Shown here one piece after another: positions 34,486 through 45,021 of a stretch of 64,000 nucleotides of DNA. The translations under genes and the position numbers were made by a program. Source of the stretch: Planctomycetota bacterium (GTDB taxonomy: Bacteria > Planctomycetota > Planctomycetia > Pirellulales > Pirellulaceae); assembly GCA_026692905.1 (NCBI GenBank), contig JAPLNL010000018.1, positions 1 to 64,000 of the forward strand, written 5' to 3'. Numbering within the stretch: position 1 is the first letter of the stretch; each line of letters starts with the position of its first letter. The notes under the pieces were generated by a model. The model saw only the letters and a list, made by a program, of their open reading frames with translations, searched no databases and had not been told where the DNA came from.

Positions 34486-35712
34486 TTATCTTAACGCAAC
34501 TTTGTAAAGATACTCATCCGTTCGCAGATACATAGCATTTTCGGAAAACGCAGGCGTTGCTAACGTTCTTCCCGGCACTTCATTCTTGCCGAGCTCTTCA
34601 AACTTCTTTCCCAATGCTACCCAGGTCGCCGTGCCTGTTTCGTTCAAAAAAAGTAGACGACCGTTTACAAACACGGGCGATGCTGAAAAATTTCCTCCGA
34701 GCCTCTCCATCCAATGGCTTTCGCCTGTCTTGGCGTCAACGCAGGAGGCTATGCCTTTGTCGGAAACAAAATAGAGTTCATCGCCGACCAAAAGCATGGA
34801 TGGTGTGCTCGGTGCGCCACGCTTGAGTCGCCAAACAACATTCGTGTCGGTTACATCGCCCTTGCCACCCAGTTTCACCGCCATCAACTCGGGATTGTCA
34901 TAGTCATGATTGTAAATGACGAGCCCATGTCCAACGGTTGGTTGTGGCACTACGGACCAACCTGGCGCTCGCACCTTCCACAACTCCTCACCTGTCTTCA
35001 AATCATAAGCGGCAAAGTGATCAGGACCGGGAGCAAACATTTGCGATTGGCCATCCACAGTCGCTACGGTCGCCGTCACAAAGGAGTGACTGATTTTCGC
35101 TTCTATCGAACGCAATGTCTTCCAAGCGACTTTGCCGGTTGCGGCATCCACTGCAGCCACAAAAGGCTTGGTGCTGCCATCGCAAGCAATAACCAACTTG
35201 CCCTCATTCAGAATAGGCGATCCACCACTACCATGCATCGGCGGGTAGTCGAGCTCGTTGCACATCCATTGAGTTACGCCATCCATTGCGGATAGTCGGG
35301 CCATTCCGAGTGCCCCGAAGTGCACGAAGACAGAACCATCGCGAACCACGGGCGTGGGGCTTGCATGGCTGTTCTTGGCATGAATCGAAGGCGCTTTATC
35401 GACGGCTTTGACCTCACGGTCCCAGATAACTTTACCGGTCTCTTTGTCGAGTGCGATAGCTCTCAGCGACAGTCCTTCGCCTTTGGCCACAGCAGTCGTC
35501 ATGTAGACTTTGCCATCGGAAATCGACGGAGAGGACCAACCCAGCCCTGCGACCGGAACTTTCCAGACCACGTTTTTTGTATCGGACCATTCCAAAGGTG
35601 TGTTGGAACCGACTGCATGACCATCCGAATTGGGGCCCCGAAACTGCGTCCAATCGCCTGCAACGAAACCGCTTAGTATCAGAGTTAATAGAGAAAAAGT
35701 CGAAACATTCAT
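34486..35712 (-). CDS. Secreted PQQ-type beta-propeller protein (BamB-like fold)
   Basis: Signal peptide MNVSTFSLLTLILSGFVAG, then DWTQFRGPNSDG, the usual start of the many planctomycete PQQ-like repeat proteins. At least six blade motifs of the type DGKVYMTTAV, DAATGKVAWKTL, DLKTGEELWKVRA and DAKTGESHWMERL are visible. The protein has no dehydrogenase catalytic domain, so it is a propeller-only protein like BamB. It is probably periplasmic or secreted and used for binding, not for outer-membrane assembly specifically. It is monocistronic, with a repeat-rich region on each side. Confidence 0.92.
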   Translation of the reverse strand: MNVSTFSLLTLILSGFVAGDWTQFRGPNSDGHAVGSNTPLEWSDTKNVVWKVPVAGLGWSSPSISDGKVYMTTAVAKGEGLSLRAIALDKETGKVIWDREVKAVDKAPSIHAKNSHASPTPVVRDGSVFVHFGALGMARLSAMDGVTQWMCNELDYPPMHGSGGSPILNEGKLVIACDGSTKPFVAAVDAATGKVAWKTLRSIEAKISHSFVTATVATVDGQSQMFAPGPDHFAAYDLKTGEELWKVRAPGWSVVPQPTVGHGLVIYNHDYDNPELMAVKLGGKGDVTDTNVVWRLKRGAPSTPSMLLVGDELYFVSDKGIASCVDAKTGESHWMERLGGNFSASPVFVNGRLLFLNETGTATWVALGKKFEELGKNEVPGRTLATPAFSENAMYLRTDEYLYKVALR

Positions 35713-35932: not shown

Positions 35933-35970
35933 CCTGCTACTTTGGTCCTGCTACTTTGGTCCTGCTACTT
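35933..35970. repeat. 14-base tandem repeat overlapping a stop codon
   Basis: Three consecutive units of cctgctactttggt begin at 35933, 35947 and 35961, the last partial. The TAG stop of the minus-strand M28 fusion gene (35965-35967) lies in the third unit, so the repeat encodes that gene's end. Confidence 0.85.
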
Positions 35971-38436
35971 TTTTCTCACGATCGCTCGGTCGATTACATT
36001 CTTAGTAATCCGTTGCACCCTCGCGTCGGGGCCGTGCGGTCGACTCCAATGCGACCAAGGCAGGGTATGCCCAGGAGGCGAGGAAAGCCCTTGTACCCAG
36101 AAAATACTCGAAGCATTAAACACCGTGTTGCCCTTTGGGCCCTCGTAGATAGTCGCTGTCCATTGCTGTGGCTTTTCGCCACCAACCCAAGCTGTTCCGG
36201 CACCAACAATTTCTAATCCTGGAATGTCCGCTGGATCGCCGTGGTATTCCCAACCGATGAGGCCAGGAATCTTGTCTCCATCTTTCATGCCGGTTCCTTC
36301 GAAAATCCAGTGCTTTGAATTGGTACATATCCAATCGCCCCCGCCATTGACCGGTTCCACGTTTCTCGCTCCCATCAAGAATCCCTCGTCAGGCCCATGT
36401 TCTGGAAATGGACCATTCTGTTTGTTTCGCTCCTCGGCGACTTGACGATCACCGCCGTAGGGACCGCCGCGGAACATGATTCGGTTTGGACGATTGTCGA
36501 AGCTTGGACGCATGGGAGTCACCCAGCAAACACTGTTACCCGACAAGAACATCAAGTGAACGCCTTCGTCTCGCATTTTCTCAACGCTTCGAAATTGGCG
36601 AATGTCCCAGTATTCGTCATGACCAACACTGACGAACACTCGGCTCTTGAGGCCACGCTCAGGCGTAACCATGTCGCTGTTGCAAACATAAGAAACATCG
36701 TAGCCATTTTGTTCTAGCCAATAAGCCAAGGGAAACTCGAGAGGCAGGTACTCGCCCGCTCCCACGGTAAGCGGATCATTCACGACGCTATCGAATTGAG
36801 CCTCGCGTCCATAGGGCCTGTCGAAACTGACATCCGCCCAAGGTCCTTGATTGCCCTTGGGATGAGTGTAAACAGAGTAGTGACTCGGCCATTGGTTGTA
36901 GGCTTGCCAAGTGTTGTCGGAGCATTGAAACAAAACATCACACTTGCGATCATCGGTAACGACAAAGATGACGTAGCTCTGCCAATAGGGTTCTGAAGGG
37001 GATGCTGGAATGGTTGTAAGCCGGCCGAGATAGACACCGCTTAGCCAATCTTTGGGAATCTTCAAACTGTGCGTTGTTGACCAATGGCACTCGTGCAAGT
37101 CTTTTTCACCTGGAGTTGGAGTCGTTTGAGTCGTGGCTTCGAGCGGTCCAATCGACTTCATCAATCTGGCCCCGGCACCACCGTAGTATCCGGTCCGGAA
37201 AATTTCCAGGTTGAACGATCTGGCCGGATTGGCTGAGACCTTGATATCGATCGTCTCGCCAGCACGAACGCTTTGACGCGAACAGTATCCTTCGATCCAG
37301 GGCGATCGATACTTTTGGCCATCGACGCGGACACGCGTGAGTTGCCAATCCGTAGCGCCAGGCTTCGCATTCTCCTCGACAATCAAATTGCTCTCAGAGG
37401 CAAGATCGTGGATGGTCTTCGCTAAACCGTCAACGACTTGTGAGTACGGACCGAAAGCTAATTTGTCGACCGTGTCTTCTGGCTGATGGTAGTGCGTATA
37501 TCGAAACAATGCAGTGTCGGTGACCATGATGCCTATATAGCCTTCCTGCCAGAATGACCAATGGTCTGACCAGCCTACGCCTGGCAGTTCGTCTCGAAGC
37601 GCACCTTTCTGCACGTCGACTTCGCAATGTGACTTGAGCTTTTCGGTAACTTGGTCGAGCAACTTTCGCGATGGGATGTTCGAAACCAGGCCGATGAAGT
37701 TTCCTGTGCTGGGATAGAAAGGTGCCAACAATGCGGGATATTTTTGGCTGTTGGGTACATCCGTAAAGTATCCCATCGTCTCGAGACTCAGCACCATTTT
37801 GATGTTTTCGTTGCGCTGGCGGCAGGATTTAGCGTAAATCCATGAGCCCATTTTACCATCGCGTTGGAAGTAAGGTGGCTCTTCATTTGCAAAGGCGACA
37901 TAGCGAACCGTTCTAGGATAACGCTTGCCATGCATCTGTCTTGCAATTTCTAGCAACGCGGCGACACCTGAGCCGTTGTCGTTCGCTCCCGGTGTGCCTT
38001 GAGCACTATCGTAGTGAGCCCCTACGATCACGATCTCGTCAGGTTTATCGGTACCGATCACTTCTGCAATCAAGTTGTGACAATCGATGCCGTTGACCTG
38101 GAACGTTTGCTTGGTGATGTTGTAGCCGACCGACTCAAACTCCCGTTGCAAATACTCGACGGTTTCATCCAACTTCTTCGGCTTGGTTAAATTTCTTTCT
38201 CCGATGGTCTCGCTGAGGTGAGTAACTGTTTTACGGAGTCGGTCCTCAGTTGTGAGGTTAGCCGTTATCTGAGCATCGCTCGGTTCCTCGTGGCCATTTG
38301 TATTGGTTACGGTGGCGGTTAGGCATAGTAACATCGAGGTTAGTCCGACAGTAGAACGCACGATGGATCGGAAGCCGTGTGTAATAGGCGTTGGTAAAAG
38401 CTTGCGCGTCGTGTGATGTTGGGCATTTTGAGGCAT
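35965..38436 (-). CDS. M28 peptidase fused to a dimethylformamidase-like domain
   Basis: Exported two-domain protein. ATG 38436 is preferred over the frame opening at 38505. After a signal region (SIVRSTVGLTSMLLCLTAT), residues about 60-345 form an M28 aminopeptidase with the zinc ligands in place: H141 (GAHYDS), D153 (GANDNGSG), E185/E186 (FANEE), E219 (LSLET) and a late His in THYHQPEDT. From about residue 375 (EGYCSRQSVRAGETI, FRTGYYGGAGARLM) the protein matches the large-subunit-like domain of N,N-dimethylformamidase. The two activities in one chain are unusual. A repeat core (agcttgcgcgtcgtg, 38399-38413) lies inside the N-terminal codons, and the stop lies in a tandem repeat. Confidence 0.86.
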   Translation of the reverse strand: MPQNAQHHTTRKLLPTPITHGFRSIVRSTVGLTSMLLCLTATVTNTNGHEEPSDAQITANLTTEDRLRKTVTHLSETIGERNLTKPKKLDETVEYLQREFESVGYNITKQTFQVNGIDCHNLIAEVIGTDKPDEIVIVGAHYDSAQGTPGANDNGSGVAALLEIARQMHGKRYPRTVRYVAFANEEPPYFQRDGKMGSWIYAKSCRQRNENIKMVLSLETMGYFTDVPNSQKYPALLAPFYPSTGNFIGLVSNIPSRKLLDQVTEKLKSHCEVDVQKGALRDELPGVGWSDHWSFWQEGYIGIMVTDTALFRYTHYHQPEDTVDKLAFGPYSQVVDGLAKTIHDLASESNLIVEENAKPGATDWQLTRVRVDGQKYRSPWIEGYCSRQSVRAGETIDIKVSANPARSFNLEIFRTGYYGGAGARLMKSIGPLEATTQTTPTPGEKDLHECHWSTTHSLKIPKDWLSGVYLGRLTTIPASPSEPYWQSYVIFVVTDDRKCDVLFQCSDNTWQAYNQWPSHYSVYTHPKGNQGPWADVSFDRPYGREAQFDSVVNDPLTVGAGEYLPLEFPLAYWLEQNGYDVSYVCNSDMVTPERGLKSRVFVSVGHDEYWDIRQFRSVEKMRDEGVHLMFLSGNSVCWVTPMRPSFDNRPNRIMFRGGPYGGDRQVAEERNKQNGPFPEHGPDEGFLMGARNVEPVNGGGDWICTNSKHWIFEGTGMKDGDKIPGLIGWEYHGDPADIPGLEIVGAGTAWVGGEKPQQWTATIYEGPKGNTVFNASSIFWVQGLSSPPGHTLPWSHWSRPHGPDARVQRITKNVIDRAIVRKK

Positions 38437-38795: not shown

Positions 38796-40100
38796 ATGAC
38801 CGTTGAATCTCAATGGGGGATACCCTCGGACAAACTCCGCAACGGGGCCTCCATCCATTTCGATCTAGTCAGTCCCGACGGCCAGTTGCTTCTTAAAGCG
38901 GGTGAGCCCATCACCAATCGACTGCTTGAGCAACTGCGTGAACGCGGTATCCAGTCACCCGTTTTGCATCATGCTCCTCGCTTCCGACCGGAACAAAAAA
39001 CCGCTGCGCTCCTGTCGAATTTCCCACCGGAGATGGTCCGCCAGATTCAAGCTTCCATGGAGTCGGCAAGAACTTCTGTCAAATCACTCCTGACCTCGTT
39101 GACGAACAAGGAGGAAATCCGCCTCGATGTGATTCAGATGAGCGCCGGACAGTTTGTTGTTCAAGCAAAGCGAGATGTTGCAGCAACGCTAGCTGTGCTC
39201 GCTTTGAACGGGAAAGTCGCGGATTCTGAGGTCGCCAATAGCCTTGCAAATCACTCAGCGAATTTGTCCTTGCTCGCAACCGTTATGAGTACATTGCAAA
39301 AGGACGAGCCCATCCAATCATTTGAGATCGGACTGGCGGGCCTACTTCACGATTGTTCGCTCATATTGAATGACGAATGGTATACGGGCCAGGCGAATTC
39401 GCGGGACGAAACGGCTCGAAAGCGATACCGTAGACACTCGATTGAAAGTGCCGATCTGCTAAACGGTTTAAGCGGAATTTCGAAATCGGTACTAGCGATG
39501 ATTCAGGAAGTTCACGAACAGGCTGATGGTTCGGGATACCCTCGTGGCTTGACGATCAGCCAAGTAAAGCCTGGCACCGAAATACTCAATTTGGCAGATG
39601 CATATCTGTCGTTGACAAGCCCTGTCCAAGGGCGTTCCATCGTACCCGCCGATGCGATCAGTTACCTTTGTTTGCATACGGCCCAAGGCAAATTTAGCCG
39701 AGATGCATTGCAGCTGCTGACCACGAGCTTGTCCATGTATCCTGTTGGCTCAGGAGTGGAATTGGACGACTTATCCGAAGCCGTCGTCGTCCGAGGAAAC
39801 AGCGACGCTCCCATGACGCCCTTGGTGCGGCTACTTCATCCCAGCCACCAAGAGATCGATCTTCGCGTATCCGATCGATTCATCTCCCGACCTGGAGGTC
39901 CGATAGTTAAGGAAAATCAACTACACCATCACGAGCCCAAAAAATGTGCGGCAGATTTACACTCAAAACCCCCGTCGACCATTGGCTTGAGGACCTGTTT
40001 CCGACCTGGAAGGATGACCTCGCTCCGTCGCTTGCGTCGATCTCTGCTCCATTCATCGCACAGTCTCGCTACAACATCGCACCAAGTCAAAATATCTTAG
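38796..40100 (+). CDS. HD-GYP-type phosphohydrolase with extended C-terminus
   Basis: Putative cyclic-di-GMP phosphodiesterase-like protein. HD metal residues are visible: H153 region, LLHDC (H185/D186), H214 (HSIESADLL) and VHEQADGSGYPRG (H240, E241, D244, GYP at 247-249). Canonical HD-GYP has HHExxDGxGYP; here the first His is Val, and HDIGK is HDCSL, so activity is not certain. The N-terminal 110 residues are an unassigned domain. The last 51 or so residues (from about residue 383) overlap the SRAP gene by 157 bases in another frame and are Arg/Ser-rich, so the original stop has probably been lost. Confidence 0.82.
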   Translation: MTVESQWGIPSDKLRNGASIHFDLVSPDGQLLLKAGEPITNRLLEQLRERGIQSPVLHHAPRFRPEQKTAALLSNFPPEMVRQIQASMESARTSVKSLLTSLTNKEEIRLDVIQMSAGQFVVQAKRDVAATLAVLALNGKVADSEVANSLANHSANLSLLATVMSTLQKDEPIQSFEIGLAGLLHDCSLILNDEWYTGQANSRDETARKRYRRHSIESADLLNGLSGISKSVLAMIQEVHEQADGSGYPRGLTISQVKPGTEILNLADAYLSLTSPVQGRSIVPADAISYLCLHTAQGKFSRDALQLLTTSLSMYPVGSGVELDDLSEAVVVRGNSDAPMTPLVRLLHPSHQEIDLRVSDRFISRPGGPIVKENQLHHHEPKKCAADLHSKPPSTIGLRTCFRPGRMTSLRRLRRSLLHSSHSLATTSHQVKIS

Positions 40101-40678
40101 TTGTTCGACTTGGTCCGGATGGTTGCCCTATTATAGAGCCGATGCGTTGGGGACTTGTACCGAGTTGGGCGGAAACTCTCTCCGCGGGCTACAACATGAT
40201 CAACGCACGATCGGAGTCGATCGCAGACAAACCTAGTTTTCGATTTTCGCTGATCAGCAAACGCTGCGTAGTCCTGGCCGATGGATATTACGAGTGGAAA
40301 ACACTGGCCCCAAAAGTCAAGGAGCCCTATTGGATTCACACGGCGGGTGAACACGTTTTCACGATGGCTGGCATTTGGGCGGAGAATCGCAAAATTCCGA
40401 ATTCGCAATCGCCGGACGTTCCAATTCGATCTGTTTCGATCGCCACCATCGCGGCCAATGAGGATGTAGCGGAAATCCACGATCGGATGCCGGCGATTAA
40501 GACCAGTGAAACGCAAATTGCAAACTGGCTGAACCCTGCCCTCTCCAACGCAGACGGCATTCCTAATTTGCTTGAGCAACTTCAATCAAGCGTAGGTGTG
40601 CTGCAGTTTCGGCAAGTTTCAACATTGGTCAATCGGGCGACCAATGAGGGACCTGAGATTTTGGAGCCGTTGAGCTGA
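39944..40678 (+). CDS. SOS-response-associated peptidase (SRAP, YedK/HMCES family)
   Basis: DNA-protein crosslinking enzyme that captures abasic sites in single-stranded DNA. The start is fixed because the catalytic Cys must be residue 2: MCGRFTLKTP. Further signature parts: SRYNIAPSQ (Asn that supports the thiazolidine link), MRWGLVPSW, INARSES, VLADGYYEWK (catalytic Glu) and EIHDRMPAI (active-site His). Length 244 aa is normal. Its 5' end lies inside the HD-GYP frame, so translation may be coupled. No SOS box was recognised upstream. Confidence 0.95.
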   Translation: MCGRFTLKTPVDHWLEDLFPTWKDDLAPSLASISAPFIAQSRYNIAPSQNILVVRLGPDGCPIIEPMRWGLVPSWAETLSAGYNMINARSESIADKPSFRFSLISKRCVVLADGYYEWKTLAPKVKEPYWIHTAGEHVFTMAGIWAENRKIPNSQSPDVPIRSVSIATIAANEDVAEIHDRMPAIKTSETQIANWLNPALSNADGIPNLLEQLQSSVGVLQFRQVSTLVNRATNEGPEILEPLS

Positions 40679-40740: not shown

Positions 40741-42072
40741 TTATCCGATTTCACAGATAAAAACTTGTAGCCAACGTTCTCGATCCGTGCCCATATACCG
40801 ATTGAAGACAAAGCGGTTCTCACCAGCAAAGTGAATCGCACCAACAAGGGATGCCGCAGATCGGTCCGTCAACCAATGGACGCAGCCAGAACGCAAATCG
40901 ACTAGGCAGATGCGTTGATCGCAAATGAAACTGCATAGGGTTCCACTTGGATCAAGCGAGATTTGGCCCTCGAGCGATTGTTCGAGGTTCGTGATTTGCT
41001 CAATCAGGCCCTGCAATACGTTGATTCGGCATAACTGAACAATGCCGCGATCATCTCGCATCGGTGCGAAAAGAAACTTTCCGTCCGCTGAGGAAACGAG
41101 CCAGCAGCGAGGGCCTTGAACTCCAGGAAATGCCCGATGCGTTGTGTGTGTAAGTCGCCTTTGGATACAGCCTATTACCGGTTCTAAAAGTTTACTTGCG
41201 TCCACCGCCGTTGCGGAACCAACCCTTTTCGCGATCTCATTCCACTGGTTTTCGCCAGGTAGGTCGCAAACGAATATTTCGTTTACCAAGTCACCCGAGT
41301 CGTCGCGAATGGCTCCCAAAAACGCCAGAGCATGTCGATTGGTTCCGACCCAACATTCCTCGACCGCAGCCTCAATGTCATCACTGCCATTGCGAGCCTC
41401 TACGCATAGCGAGGCAGCAAGAAACGCACAGTAGGCGCCGCTGAACGATTCCGGATCACTGACGTCTACCCCTCGGTCGTCGACGCAAACAGGCATGTTG
41501 GGCACCATGAAGCCAACACTGCGTTGATTTCGGAATGGACCGTTGGCTGGCGATTTGCGTTCCAGCCAAGCGTCGTTGTAAGTAAAACTCAGCCAACCGT
41601 CTTTGCTCCACGAATGAGCATGCGTCCCACCGCTCAACGCTCCAAACGGTCGAACTCCGACGCCGTCGGCATTTAGTACGGAGCGAGCTTCCGCATGAAT
41701 AAACTTGCCATGCTCTTTGATGTCAACCATCGCGCCGAATCTGCGAGCAGCCGAATAAGGCTTTTCGCTAGTGCAATTTTCTAAACCGTGAATGAAAGCG
41801 ACCAGAGGTTTGTTGGGATGAAACGATGCCGCCCCAACTCCAGGCCCAAACTCCGATTGATTGGCCGTTTGGTAGAGTCTTTTGATTTCACCGCTATCCA
41901 GGTGTACCATCTCGATCGCGTCGGTTCTCGCGATGTGCGAGTCGTCGTTGCGAGTGTCGTAAACGGCCCAGTTGCCATCAGGAGAAATAGCCTGACGGTG
42001 ATTGAGGGTATGGCCATAACAGCCAAACGTTAGATGACGCTCACGAACCATAGCTGAGAGCACTGGTGCCAA
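40741..42072 (-). CDS. YidR-like DUF3748 beta-propeller protein
   Basis: Soluble propeller protein. ERHLTFGCYGHTLNHRQAIS, then PDGNWAVYDTRNDDS and ASFHPNKPLVAFIHG match my memory of the DUF3748 family (Escherichia coli YidR), in which TolB/WD40-like blades form most of the protein. Other blade-like strands occur at SWSKDGWLSFTYND and SLDPSGTLCSFICD. There is no signal peptide, so it is probably cytoplasmic. Function is unknown in the family. ATG 42072 is used; ATG 42048 is also possible. It is monocistronic. Confidence 0.75.
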   Translation of the reverse strand: MAPVLSAMVRERHLTFGCYGHTLNHRQAISPDGNWAVYDTRNDDSHIARTDAIEMVHLDSGEIKRLYQTANQSEFGPGVGAASFHPNKPLVAFIHGLENCTSEKPYSAARRFGAMVDIKEHGKFIHAEARSVLNADGVGVRPFGALSGGTHAHSWSKDGWLSFTYNDAWLERKSPANGPFRNQRSVGFMVPNMPVCVDDRGVDVSDPESFSGAYCAFLAASLCVEARNGSDDIEAAVEECWVGTNRHALAFLGAIRDDSGDLVNEIFVCDLPGENQWNEIAKRVGSATAVDASKLLEPVIGCIQRRLTHTTHRAFPGVQGPRCWLVSSADGKFLFAPMRDDRGIVQLCRINVLQGLIEQITNLEQSLEGQISLDPSGTLCSFICDQRICLVDLRSGCVHWLTDRSAASLVGAIHFAGENRFVFNRYMGTDRERWLQVFICEIG

Positions 42073-42301: not shown

Positions 42302-43831
42302 CTAGCGCGCCAACTTCGGTCGGCCAGAGACGGTTGGGTCGGCAGACTTACTCGGTTGCGAAATCAGATTTTTCTTTCCATCGGATGCCGGTGTTTCCTT
42401 GCCTAACGCCTCAACTGCATTTGCATCGAGTTTGGTCGGCCAGTTGATGAGTTCGAACGAGTCAGCAAGCTGAGCGTCCTCGGCGGCAAACAAATCCATG
42501 TTGGCCTCGTTCAACGTAAAGGCCAACACGACGCGTCGGCCATCGTCATTGGAAATGTGGTAGTGAATCCACTGGATATCAACTCCTTGCGTCTCACCGC
42601 GACAAACGATTCTCAACAACCGGAGCTTATTGACCGAAAGCCGTTCTGAGGCCTCGACAACCTCTATCAAAGCCTTGCCAAGCGCGGTCTTGACATCCGC
42701 CTGAAAGCCTTCCAAGCTCAATTGTCGCCCTGGCTCGTAGTCGATCATGTTGGTGATATTGCACTGCGCGACAACTCGATTGTTGACTACATATCGCAGC
42801 GTCGCTTCCTCACCGCTGTCGCGATAAGTCGACCACTTTCGGTTGGCGACGAATCGATAGTAGCCCAAGTCCGATTGAAACTGAAAAAGACTAGCGGTTT
42901 CCATGGTCCCCATTTTGGCAGAAACGGTTTTCAAGGTTTCGCCCGTACTCATGGCATCAATGGGCGAGCGAAGGATGCGGAGTTGGGCGGTAATTTGAAA
43001 GCCGGGTTCCGCTTCACTGATCTCGCGGGTCTCCATAATGTTGACGGCAAACCAAGATATCGTGCCGGTCTTGCGATCGAGCTGTGCTTTTCCTTCGATC
43101 TTGAGCGTCGTTGGAACTTGGCGAACCGAAGCCGACAACGTTCCGTCAAGCTCAAGTTGGGCCTTGTCCTCGTCGGCGTCAACCAAACACATGACCAATT
43201 TGCCCGCTTGAATCGCGTCCATGTTCAGTAAGCGGCAGGCGATGGAGTTGTCGATCGTCCACTTGTCCGCGATGTGAACTTCTTTCTCCGTCAACAATTG
43301 GTCGATGAACATGGTATTGATCGGGCCTTCGATCAAGTCCCTTTCGGCGGCAAACAGCGGATTGTTGGGGCATGTTGCGATGAGACCTTGGTCTGAACCG
43401 ACCCGAAGAATATCGTTGCATTGCTCACGAAGGCTGGTCTTGGTGATATGTCGGTCGATTTGAATCTCGGAGCCTGACTCATGATAATGTTGGTACGATT
43501 TGCAGCCGTTTAATTGAGTGGCGATTTCATATTGTTCGTCGAAGTCGACCGTCGAGCTCGCTTTGATCGGGGCGGTCTTGGCTGCGATCATTTTGCCACC
43601 CTTGGCCGTCGCGTCGTTGGTTTGACTCTTGAGCCGGATCTCGCCGGCTATCTCCAAAACCGCGCGAACTCGGAACATGCCTGTCAACGCATCGTGCGGC
43701 TTGCTCTTCGAGTCAGTGATAGCTTGCGAGGCCGAGGACCAGACCAAGGAGGATGCGATCGCAATGCTGCTTGCGATCCATTCACGACGCGTTTGTCGAA
43801 CGGTTTCAATTCCGATGAGCTTAGAGTTCAT
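42302..43831 (-). CDS. Secreted hypothetical protein
   Basis: Family not recognised. The ATG at 43831 (MNSKLIGIETVRQTRREWIA, then SSIAIASSLVWSSASQAI) gives a leader of about 40 residues; the frame is open further upstream. The mature protein of about 470 residues looks beta-rich with alternating polar strands (AVLEIAGEIRLKS, KWTIDNSIACRLLN, TTLKIEGKAQLDRKTGTISW). The layout of two similar segments (about residues 35-290 and 300-500) may be a duplication. No catalytic motif is seen. Such large secreted proteins of unknown role are common in planctomycetes. Confidence 0.75.
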   Translation of the reverse strand: MNSKLIGIETVRQTRREWIASSIAIASSLVWSSASQAITDSKSKPHDALTGMFRVRAVLEIAGEIRLKSQTNDATAKGGKMIAAKTAPIKASSTVDFDEQYEIATQLNGCKSYQHYHESGSEIQIDRHITKTSLREQCNDILRVGSDQGLIATCPNNPLFAAERDLIEGPINTMFIDQLLTEKEVHIADKWTIDNSIACRLLNMDAIQAGKLVMCLVDADEDKAQLELDGTLSASVRQVPTTLKIEGKAQLDRKTGTISWFAVNIMETREISEAEPGFQITAQLRILRSPIDAMSTGETLKTVSAKMGTMETASLFQFQSDLGYYRFVANRKWSTYRDSGEEATLRYVVNNRVVAQCNITNMIDYEPGRQLSLEGFQADVKTALGKALIEVVEASERLSVNKLRLLRIVCRGETQGVDIQWIHYHISNDDGRRVVLAFTLNEANMDLFAAEDAQLADSFELINWPTKLDANAVEALGKETPASDGKKNLISQPSKSADPTVSGRPKLAR

Positions 43832-44202
43832 GCTCGAATCCAATGGTTCTGTGAGGTGCTGGGCTATCGTCGCTTGAGGAACGACCACGTACCGTCGTGC
43901 ATCGGATCGGAATCATCGGGATGCTTAGCAGAACCGAACTAATCGGCAAACTTTGCCTAGACTACCATTTTTAAGGCAGGCGAATTGCTGGCATTGAGAT
44001 TTGGCGCTCGGATAAGACTTGTCCGGCGGATTTGCCCGTTAGAATTGCCCCGTTCGGACCAGTTTCCGAATTTGCACAGCCACCTTTGGGGGGTGCATAG
44101 GTGGGGCTGCATCGTCAGTGACCCATAATTCGAAGGTCCTTTTTTGGGCGAGTTCCAAAAGTACGGTTGCTTTATTGGGACACATCACGAACCTTTGTAT
44201 TT
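43832..44202. other. Intergenic divergent region
   Basis: About 370 bases between divergent genes. cagccacct (44077-44085) and aggtggggctg (44099-44109) could pair with a two-base bulge around ttggggggtgcat. No clear promoter boxes are seen. The frame of the PP2C gene is open across part of this stretch, but the segment does not look coding. Confidence 0.4.
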
Positions 44203-45021
44203 ATGTCGACTGTTTCAAACCACCACTATCTACTCCGCGAAGAAAAGAGCGAGCTCCTTTCGCAAAAGGACACTCATTGGGAGGCCTGCGCGTTTTCCCG
44301 GCGAAGTCCCGCCAAGGAGACGTGCAATGAGGACGCAGTGGGTATCATCCGGGTCGATGACGAAACGGCTGTCTTCGCTATTGCGGATGGTTGTGGTGGG
44401 ATGCGAGGTGGCGAACAAGCGTCCGAAATTGCATTGCAGGTTTTGACCCATTCCATTGAGAGCAACGAAAGCGGGCCGGACCGACTACGCGTTGCAATTT
44501 TAGACGGTATCGAACAGGCCAACAGGGCGGTACAAGAGCTTAAGATTGGAGCCGCGTGCACTATCGCGGTGGTCGAGTATCATCGCGGCACGATTCGTCC
44601 GTATCACGTCGGCGATTCGATGATTTTGGTCACGGGAGTTCGAGGCCGCATTCGCTATCAGTCGGTGAGCCATTCGCCGGTAGGTTTTGCGGTCGAGTCC
44701 GGGATGCTTGCGGCAGATGAAGCGATGCATCATGAAGACCGCCATTTGGTGTCCAACGTCGTGGGTGACGCTCGCATGCGGATTGAGATTGGTCCCGCGC
44801 TCGTCTTGTCGCAGCGCGATACCGTCATCATTGCAAGCGACGGACTTTTTGACAATTTGAGCATTGACGAAGTGGTGGGAGGCTTGCGTAAGGGCAAACT
44901 AGCCCTAGCGCTCGCGTCGGTAACCGATGTGGCATATCAACGCATGCTAGGCATCAAAGATCAGCCATGCAAGCCCGACGATCTAAGCGTCGTCGCCGTC
45001 CGTCCGTTGAGTCTGCGATAA
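44203..45021 (+). CDS. PP2C-family Ser/Thr phosphatase
   Basis: PPM/PP2C phosphatase that removes phosphate from Ser/Thr. Metal and signature motifs in order: CNEDAVGI (motif 1, ED), AIADGCGGMRGGE (motif 2, DGxGG), ACTIAVVEYHRGTI, YHVGDSMILV (GDS), TVIIASDGLFDN (DGlxD) and PDDLSVVAV (DD). Start ATG 44203 gives 272 aa; an upstream in-frame ATG at 44167 is possible. No membrane helix is seen, so it is cytoplasmic. Planctomycetes carry many Ser/Thr kinases, but none is adjacent. The gene is convergent with the next and only 17 bases apart. Confidence 0.93.
   Translation: MSTVSNHHYLLREEKSELLSQKDTHWEACAFSRRSPAKETCNEDAVGIIRVDDETAVFAIADGCGGMRGGEQASEIALQVLTHSIESNESGPDRLRVAILDGIEQANRAVQELKIGAACTIAVVEYHRGTIRPYHVGDSMILVTGVRGRIRYQSVSHSPVGFAVESGMLAADEAMHHEDRHLVSNVVGDARMRIEIGPALVLSQRDTVIIASDGLFDNLSIDEVVGGLRKGKLALALASVTDVAYQRMLGIKDQPCKPDDLSVVAVRPLSLR

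Follow-up and report, generated by a model that had tools for sequence, protein, structure and literature searches.

A rare planctomycete gene joining an M28 peptidase to a dimethylformamidase-like domain, predicted to encode a bifunctional exported hydrolase

Is a planctomycete reading frame that carries both a peptidase and an amidase-like domain really one gene, and would its two parts work together? The frame lies in the stretch of DNA analysed here (the window, 64,000 nucleotides), where positions 35965-38436 of the minus strand form a single open frame of 823 codons with its ATG at 38436 and its stop at 35965-35967, while the plus-strand reading of this interval in the same frame contains many stops. 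The encoded protein of 823 amino acids begins with a hydrophobic stretch (about residues 1-48; 38293-38436), followed by an M28 peptidase domain that extends to residue 345 (37402-38292) and by a DMFase-like half (residues 346-823; 35968-37401) composed of Ig-like and ThuA/GATase-like domains. At the junction (residues 343-350; 37387-37410), the end of the M28 part passes directly into the start of a DMFA2_C protein. Pfam placed Peptidase_M28 at residues 121-332 (E=2e-28, 99.9 bits against a curated cut-off of 21.3) and DMFA2_C (PF20254) at residues 410-785 (E=4.9e-76, 257 bits against a cut-off of 27), the latter match covering profile positions 2-369 of 374; for NCBIfam, none of the 10 families listed for the protein reached its cut-off. 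The first-pass annotation had placed both domains in one exported protein. The Pfam matches, far over their cut-offs, bear out the first part of this claim, and for the second the N-terminus, read by eye, looks like that of an exported protein.

A second copy of the gene shows that the frame is intact. Genome G021 contains, on its own contig of 6,010 bases, the same 823-residue gene with a 92% identical protein, flanked by the same two genes as the window copy, a PQQ/beta-propeller gene (34486-35712, minus strand) and an HD-domain gene (38796-40100, plus strand). Between both coding sequences 823 of 823 codons align with no indel, the DNA being 88.3% identical and the whole-gene dS about 0.54. 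The dN/dS ratio was 0.065 for residues 61-345 of the M28 part (dS 0.62) and 0.03 for residues 346-823 of the DMFA2_C part (dS 0.53), compared with 0.78 for the fast-evolving residues 1-60; both halves are thus under strong purifying selection, and the gapless shared gene indicates that the fusion is older than the split between the window and G021 lineages. The possibility that an internal ATG start divides the gene in two was ruled out, since Met is absent between residues 304 and 426 and no internal ATG lies near the junction. The two parts are separate genes in relatives, but the doubt raised earlier, that a sequencing or assembly error had joined two adjoining genes, fails this frame check and can practically be dismissed, because junction and frame are identical in the separate G021 contig despite an 11.7% nucleotide difference and because the signal-like start of the DMFA2_C protein is wholly gone, whereas a single base error would leave that start in place.

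The fusion is young and rare. A search of 60 genomes, 57 of which had a match at E<=0.001, gave a match over residues 1-823 only in the window genome and G021 among the matches listed. Within the family, the fused protein matched 136 of 241 genomes at E<=1e-60, with the full-length fusion in 2 of them among the matches listed; in a phylum sample of 392 genomes that did not contain G021 (119 matching at E<=1e-20), the window genome gave the only full match among those listed. Searched separately, the M28 half has relatives in 19 of the 241 family genomes (E<=1e-70) and the C-terminal half in 118 (E<=1e-90). Among the places listed for each half, frames longer than 700 amino acids were limited to both fusions plus G486 (881 aa, a sulfatase-M28 protein) for the M28 half, and to both fusions plus G625 (1029 aa, with no M28 seen by eye) for the C-terminal half; some of the listed frames end at contig edges (G461, for example), and full-length matching could overlook a fusion with one strongly diverged half. 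As far as searched, M28 plus DMFA2_C therefore looks like a new combination of two known families, and a literature search, with subscription papers mostly outside it, found no paper pairing dimethylformamidase with M28 or with planctomycetes.

The origin of the C-terminal half can be followed in its tree, where it groups with the stand-alone protein of G012 (99/96) and the fused pair falls inside a seven-row set whose members all belong to the same genus (100/100). Stand-alone DMFA2_C proteins occur in Planctomycetota, Verrucomicrobiota, Bacteroidota and other phyla and reach 85% identity to the C-terminal half among the matches listed. They differ from the window protein in having no M28 part and in carrying N-terminal extensions of their own, signal-like by eye, which the fusion does not have. 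The nearest stand-alone M28 protein, 62% identical, was that of G023 (60 genomes searched, among the matches listed). We infer that the fusion may have exchanged the C-terminal enzyme's own export signal for the whole peptidase together with its signal and that, as a result, both enzymes would be exported at a 1:1 ratio.

Around the PQQ-like gene, the gene order of the window was seen only in L152 among 12 loci of relatives. At one of these 12 loci, in G002, a relative of the PQQ-like gene is inverted and separated by 61 bases from counterparts of the window genes 40741-42072, 42302-43888 and 44167-45021; both the fused gene and the HD-domain gene are missing from this gap, and the single site only shows that the window arrangement is not general. 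For the HD-domain gene (38796-40100), local matches in other genomes stop at or before residue 382 of 433, and the final portion of the gene overlaps, in another frame, the start of the next open reading frame (39944-40678); its original stop may have been lost or shifted.

Peptidases of the M28 family bind their metals through H, D, E, D/E and H and use a Glu as general base. The window protein has H141, D153, E186 and H317 together with the base E185, and presents E219 at the position occupied by Asp in LapB, the solved enzyme aligned with it (5gne); the six positions, E219 included, are kept in 27 of the 27 M28-bearing rows of alignment A5. The initial claim that all M28 zinc ligands are present thus holds with one Asp-to-Glu exchange with respect to LapB. 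In structural comparisons, the M28 part of the full-length model matched the zinc aminopeptidases BSAP (6hc7; Z 32.4, 257 residues aligned, rmsd 2.4), that of Aeromonas (1amp; Z 31.3, 258 residues aligned, rmsd 2.3) and that of S. griseus (1cp7), with Z 29.9-32.4 over this group; fold, metal positions and the base E185 are shared with these enzymes, whereas the window protein adds a C-terminal DMFA2_C partner. Glutaminyl cyclases match almost equally (7cjg, Z 29.1), so the fold alone leaves the activity unsettled; the M28 half would, in our reading, be a two-zinc aminopeptidase.

The C-terminal half was modelled on its own with high confidence (pLDDT 95.2, pTM 0.94), and its closest folds belong to two amide hydrolases, DMFase and N-acetyl-(R)-beta-phenylalanine acylase, with Z 31.2 against both 8i59 (383 residues aligned, rmsd 2.6) and 6lve (381 residues aligned, rmsd 2.5). 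The first match beyond these two enzymes was 6t6g (Z 15.5), and the ThuA-like protein 1t0b is also near (Z 13.7). The large subunit of Paracoccus DMFase (PDB 6lvb and its mutants) aligns over 381-399 residues with Z 30.4-31.2 and 23-24% identity, the matched portion being its Ig-like domain and ThuA-like domain III (Z about 31). The acylase (PDB 8huy, 8i59, 8i5a) shares the fold (Z 30.8-31.2) and the H-x-E-Y and Q-A-Y motifs but is only 21-22% identical and has chains of 772-776 residues, compared with 478 in the window half; a search for a paper on the acylase structure, with subscription papers mostly outside it, found none.

In DMFase, according to the published account (PMC7686228), Y399, Y440 and E521 bind Fe3+, the variants Y440A, E521A and H519A are inactive, and N547 is named beside H519 in a figure legend. 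Profile comparison pairs H519, E521 and N547 of DMFase with H606, E608 and N634 of the window protein, Y399 aligns with Y513, and Y523 falls two columns away from Y440. These five putative iron-site or catalytic residues (Y513, Y523, H606, E608 and N634, within 35968-37401) do not vary in any of the 61 rows of alignment A4, which represents the window's own subfamily. By eye, Y523 is followed by a V-x-F/Y...R-P stretch similar to the one after Y440 of DMFase; based on this stretch and on its invariance, we take Y523 as the likely second Tyr ligand and counterpart of Y440. Both putative active sites of the fused protein look intact.

The same source names, in addition to the Ig-like domain and ThuA-like domain III, a pentraxin-like domain II (residues 74-337), and reports that the large subunit is inactive without the small one (PMC7686228). 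Domain II is absent from the window protein, as the profile stretches skip from residue 41 of DMFase to residue 335 in the space of 30 query positions and the C-terminal half has 478 residues against 775 in DMFase. Nor is a small subunit encoded by either of the two flanking genes (PQQ-like and HD-domain), so the protein need not be a dimethylformamidase in the strict sense. The proposed likeness to the DMFase large subunit stands for the fold and most catalytic residues but not for domain II, and DMFase has in turn neither the export-like N-terminus nor the peptidase fusion of the window protein. The full-length model, built from alignment A5 once the mixed alignments A3 and A6 had been dropped for their misplaced M28 rows, was poor over the C-terminal half, where the mean pLDDT was 71.0, and gives no mutual placement of the halves.

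We consider it probable that the locus encodes a recent and maintained fusion, that is, one exported protein with two predicted metal-dependent hydrolase domains, and a bifunctional exported hydrolase is the most likely prediction for it. The C-terminal half would act as a mononuclear-iron amide hydrolase with a 2-Tyr-1-Glu site assisted by His and Asn, and its substrate would be an N-acyl amide (for example, an N-acyl amino acid) instead of DMF. For the stand-alone planctomycete DMFA2_C proteins, no activity data or substrate was found in the literature search.

ThuA/GATase-like folds serve other roles too, and the DMFA2_C half could be a binding or structural module that leaves the peptidase as the sole active part. 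DMFA2_C is found inside very large multidomain proteins (L187, L188), one of which, the distant L188 protein, has its His and Asn positions changed, indicating that the site is not kept by every relative; the absence of domain II and the nearness of the fold to 1t0b point in the same direction. Against this, the putative catalytic residues show no change within the window's subfamily, the DMFA2_C part has the lower dN/dS reported above, and both closest folds are amide hydrolases, and we regard a purely structural role as unlikely.

Two active domains could still have been brought together by accident, acting on unrelated substrates and sharing nothing but the export signal. An M28 gene of this kind stood beside a DMFA2_C gene in 0 of 109 loci (E<=1e-6), of which 80 were named loci with flanks of up to 4 kb, the best ones, through which other phyla were represented, and 29 were others with up to 1.5 kb, flanks being often shorter at contig ends; the count keeps L047 and L151, whose frames are interrupted within the match, and L087, L127 and L137, which run off an end. 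When the two fusion genomes are left out, 239 family genomes remain, with M28 in 17, DMFA2_C in 116 and both in 4, fewer than the 8.3 expected (Fisher test, two-sided 0.043, one-sided for avoidance 0.028, with kinship and genome completeness ignored). The rarity of the fusion in the family favours an accident as well, and so do other unions: the M28 kind is joined to a sulfatase (G486) and the DMFA2_C kind to a weakly BNR-like part (L087, L092), which indicates that these genes fuse with various partners and makes the surprise of the new combination moderate to low. What speaks against an accident is that both halves have been kept without an indel since the lineages split, at a dS of about 0.54. 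Weighing both sides, we give the accidental union slightly less than an even chance.

These counts also bear on the earlier suggestion that the protein jointly processes an N-acylated or formylated peptide, which is favoured by the fusion itself but not by the neighbourhood or the co-occurrence of the separate genes, leaving the fusion and its maintenance as the support for cooperation. In its most specific form, one exported enzyme would remove an N-acyl or N-formyl block at the mononuclear-iron site and trim the freed amino end at the two-zinc M28 site; we think this improbable, although, if true, it would describe a self-contained 'deblock and trim' peptidase. Neighbouring genes gave no substrate clue, since no common neighbour emerged from 20 loci, 15 of them with a stand-alone DMFA2_C gene: the commonest other gene cluster was present in 6 and non-adjacent. 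Four loci (L026, L027, L028 and L035) have an entire block in common, with a beta-lactamase-fold gene as adjacent neighbour (tested for L026).

The reading of the fusion as one exported protein with two hydrolase domains provides two activities that lend themselves to joint study. It also extends beyond the fusion, given that many genomes of this planctomycete family carry close relatives of the DMFA2_C half: these shorter, apparently exported relatives are predicted to retain the unusual 2-Tyr-1-Glu iron site of DMFase while lacking domain II, a prediction that is directly testable and concerns a large uncharacterised group.

Several further arrangements of both gene kinds were observed. In two genomes of the genus, a ThuA-like gene (L033:8101-9069, tested; L037:11331-12176, assigned by likeness) lies directly upstream of a stand-alone DMFA2_C gene, a neighbour of note as the DMFA2_C half has a ThuA-like fold too. 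The sulfatase fusion of G486 (L185:2333-4975) combines, in its 881-aa frame, Sulfatase (PF00884, E=2.2e-57) with M28 of the same kind (E=3.1e-30). The DMFA2_C proteins of L087 and L092 are extended at the C-terminus by about 325 aa, and in L087 this addition shows a weak likeness to BNR_2 that stays below the cut-off (E=2.6e-4). Among the large proteins, L187:7856-14779 (2308 aa) combines DMFA2_C with Ig-like, DUF4082 and lectin-like domains, and L188:2353-6870 (1506 aa) combines it with DUF4082 and thrombospondin-type repeats. Finally, the window genome itself carries a distant stand-alone DMFA2_C paralogue (L001 / L164, on G000:C40) in a 494-aa frame, 28-30% identical.
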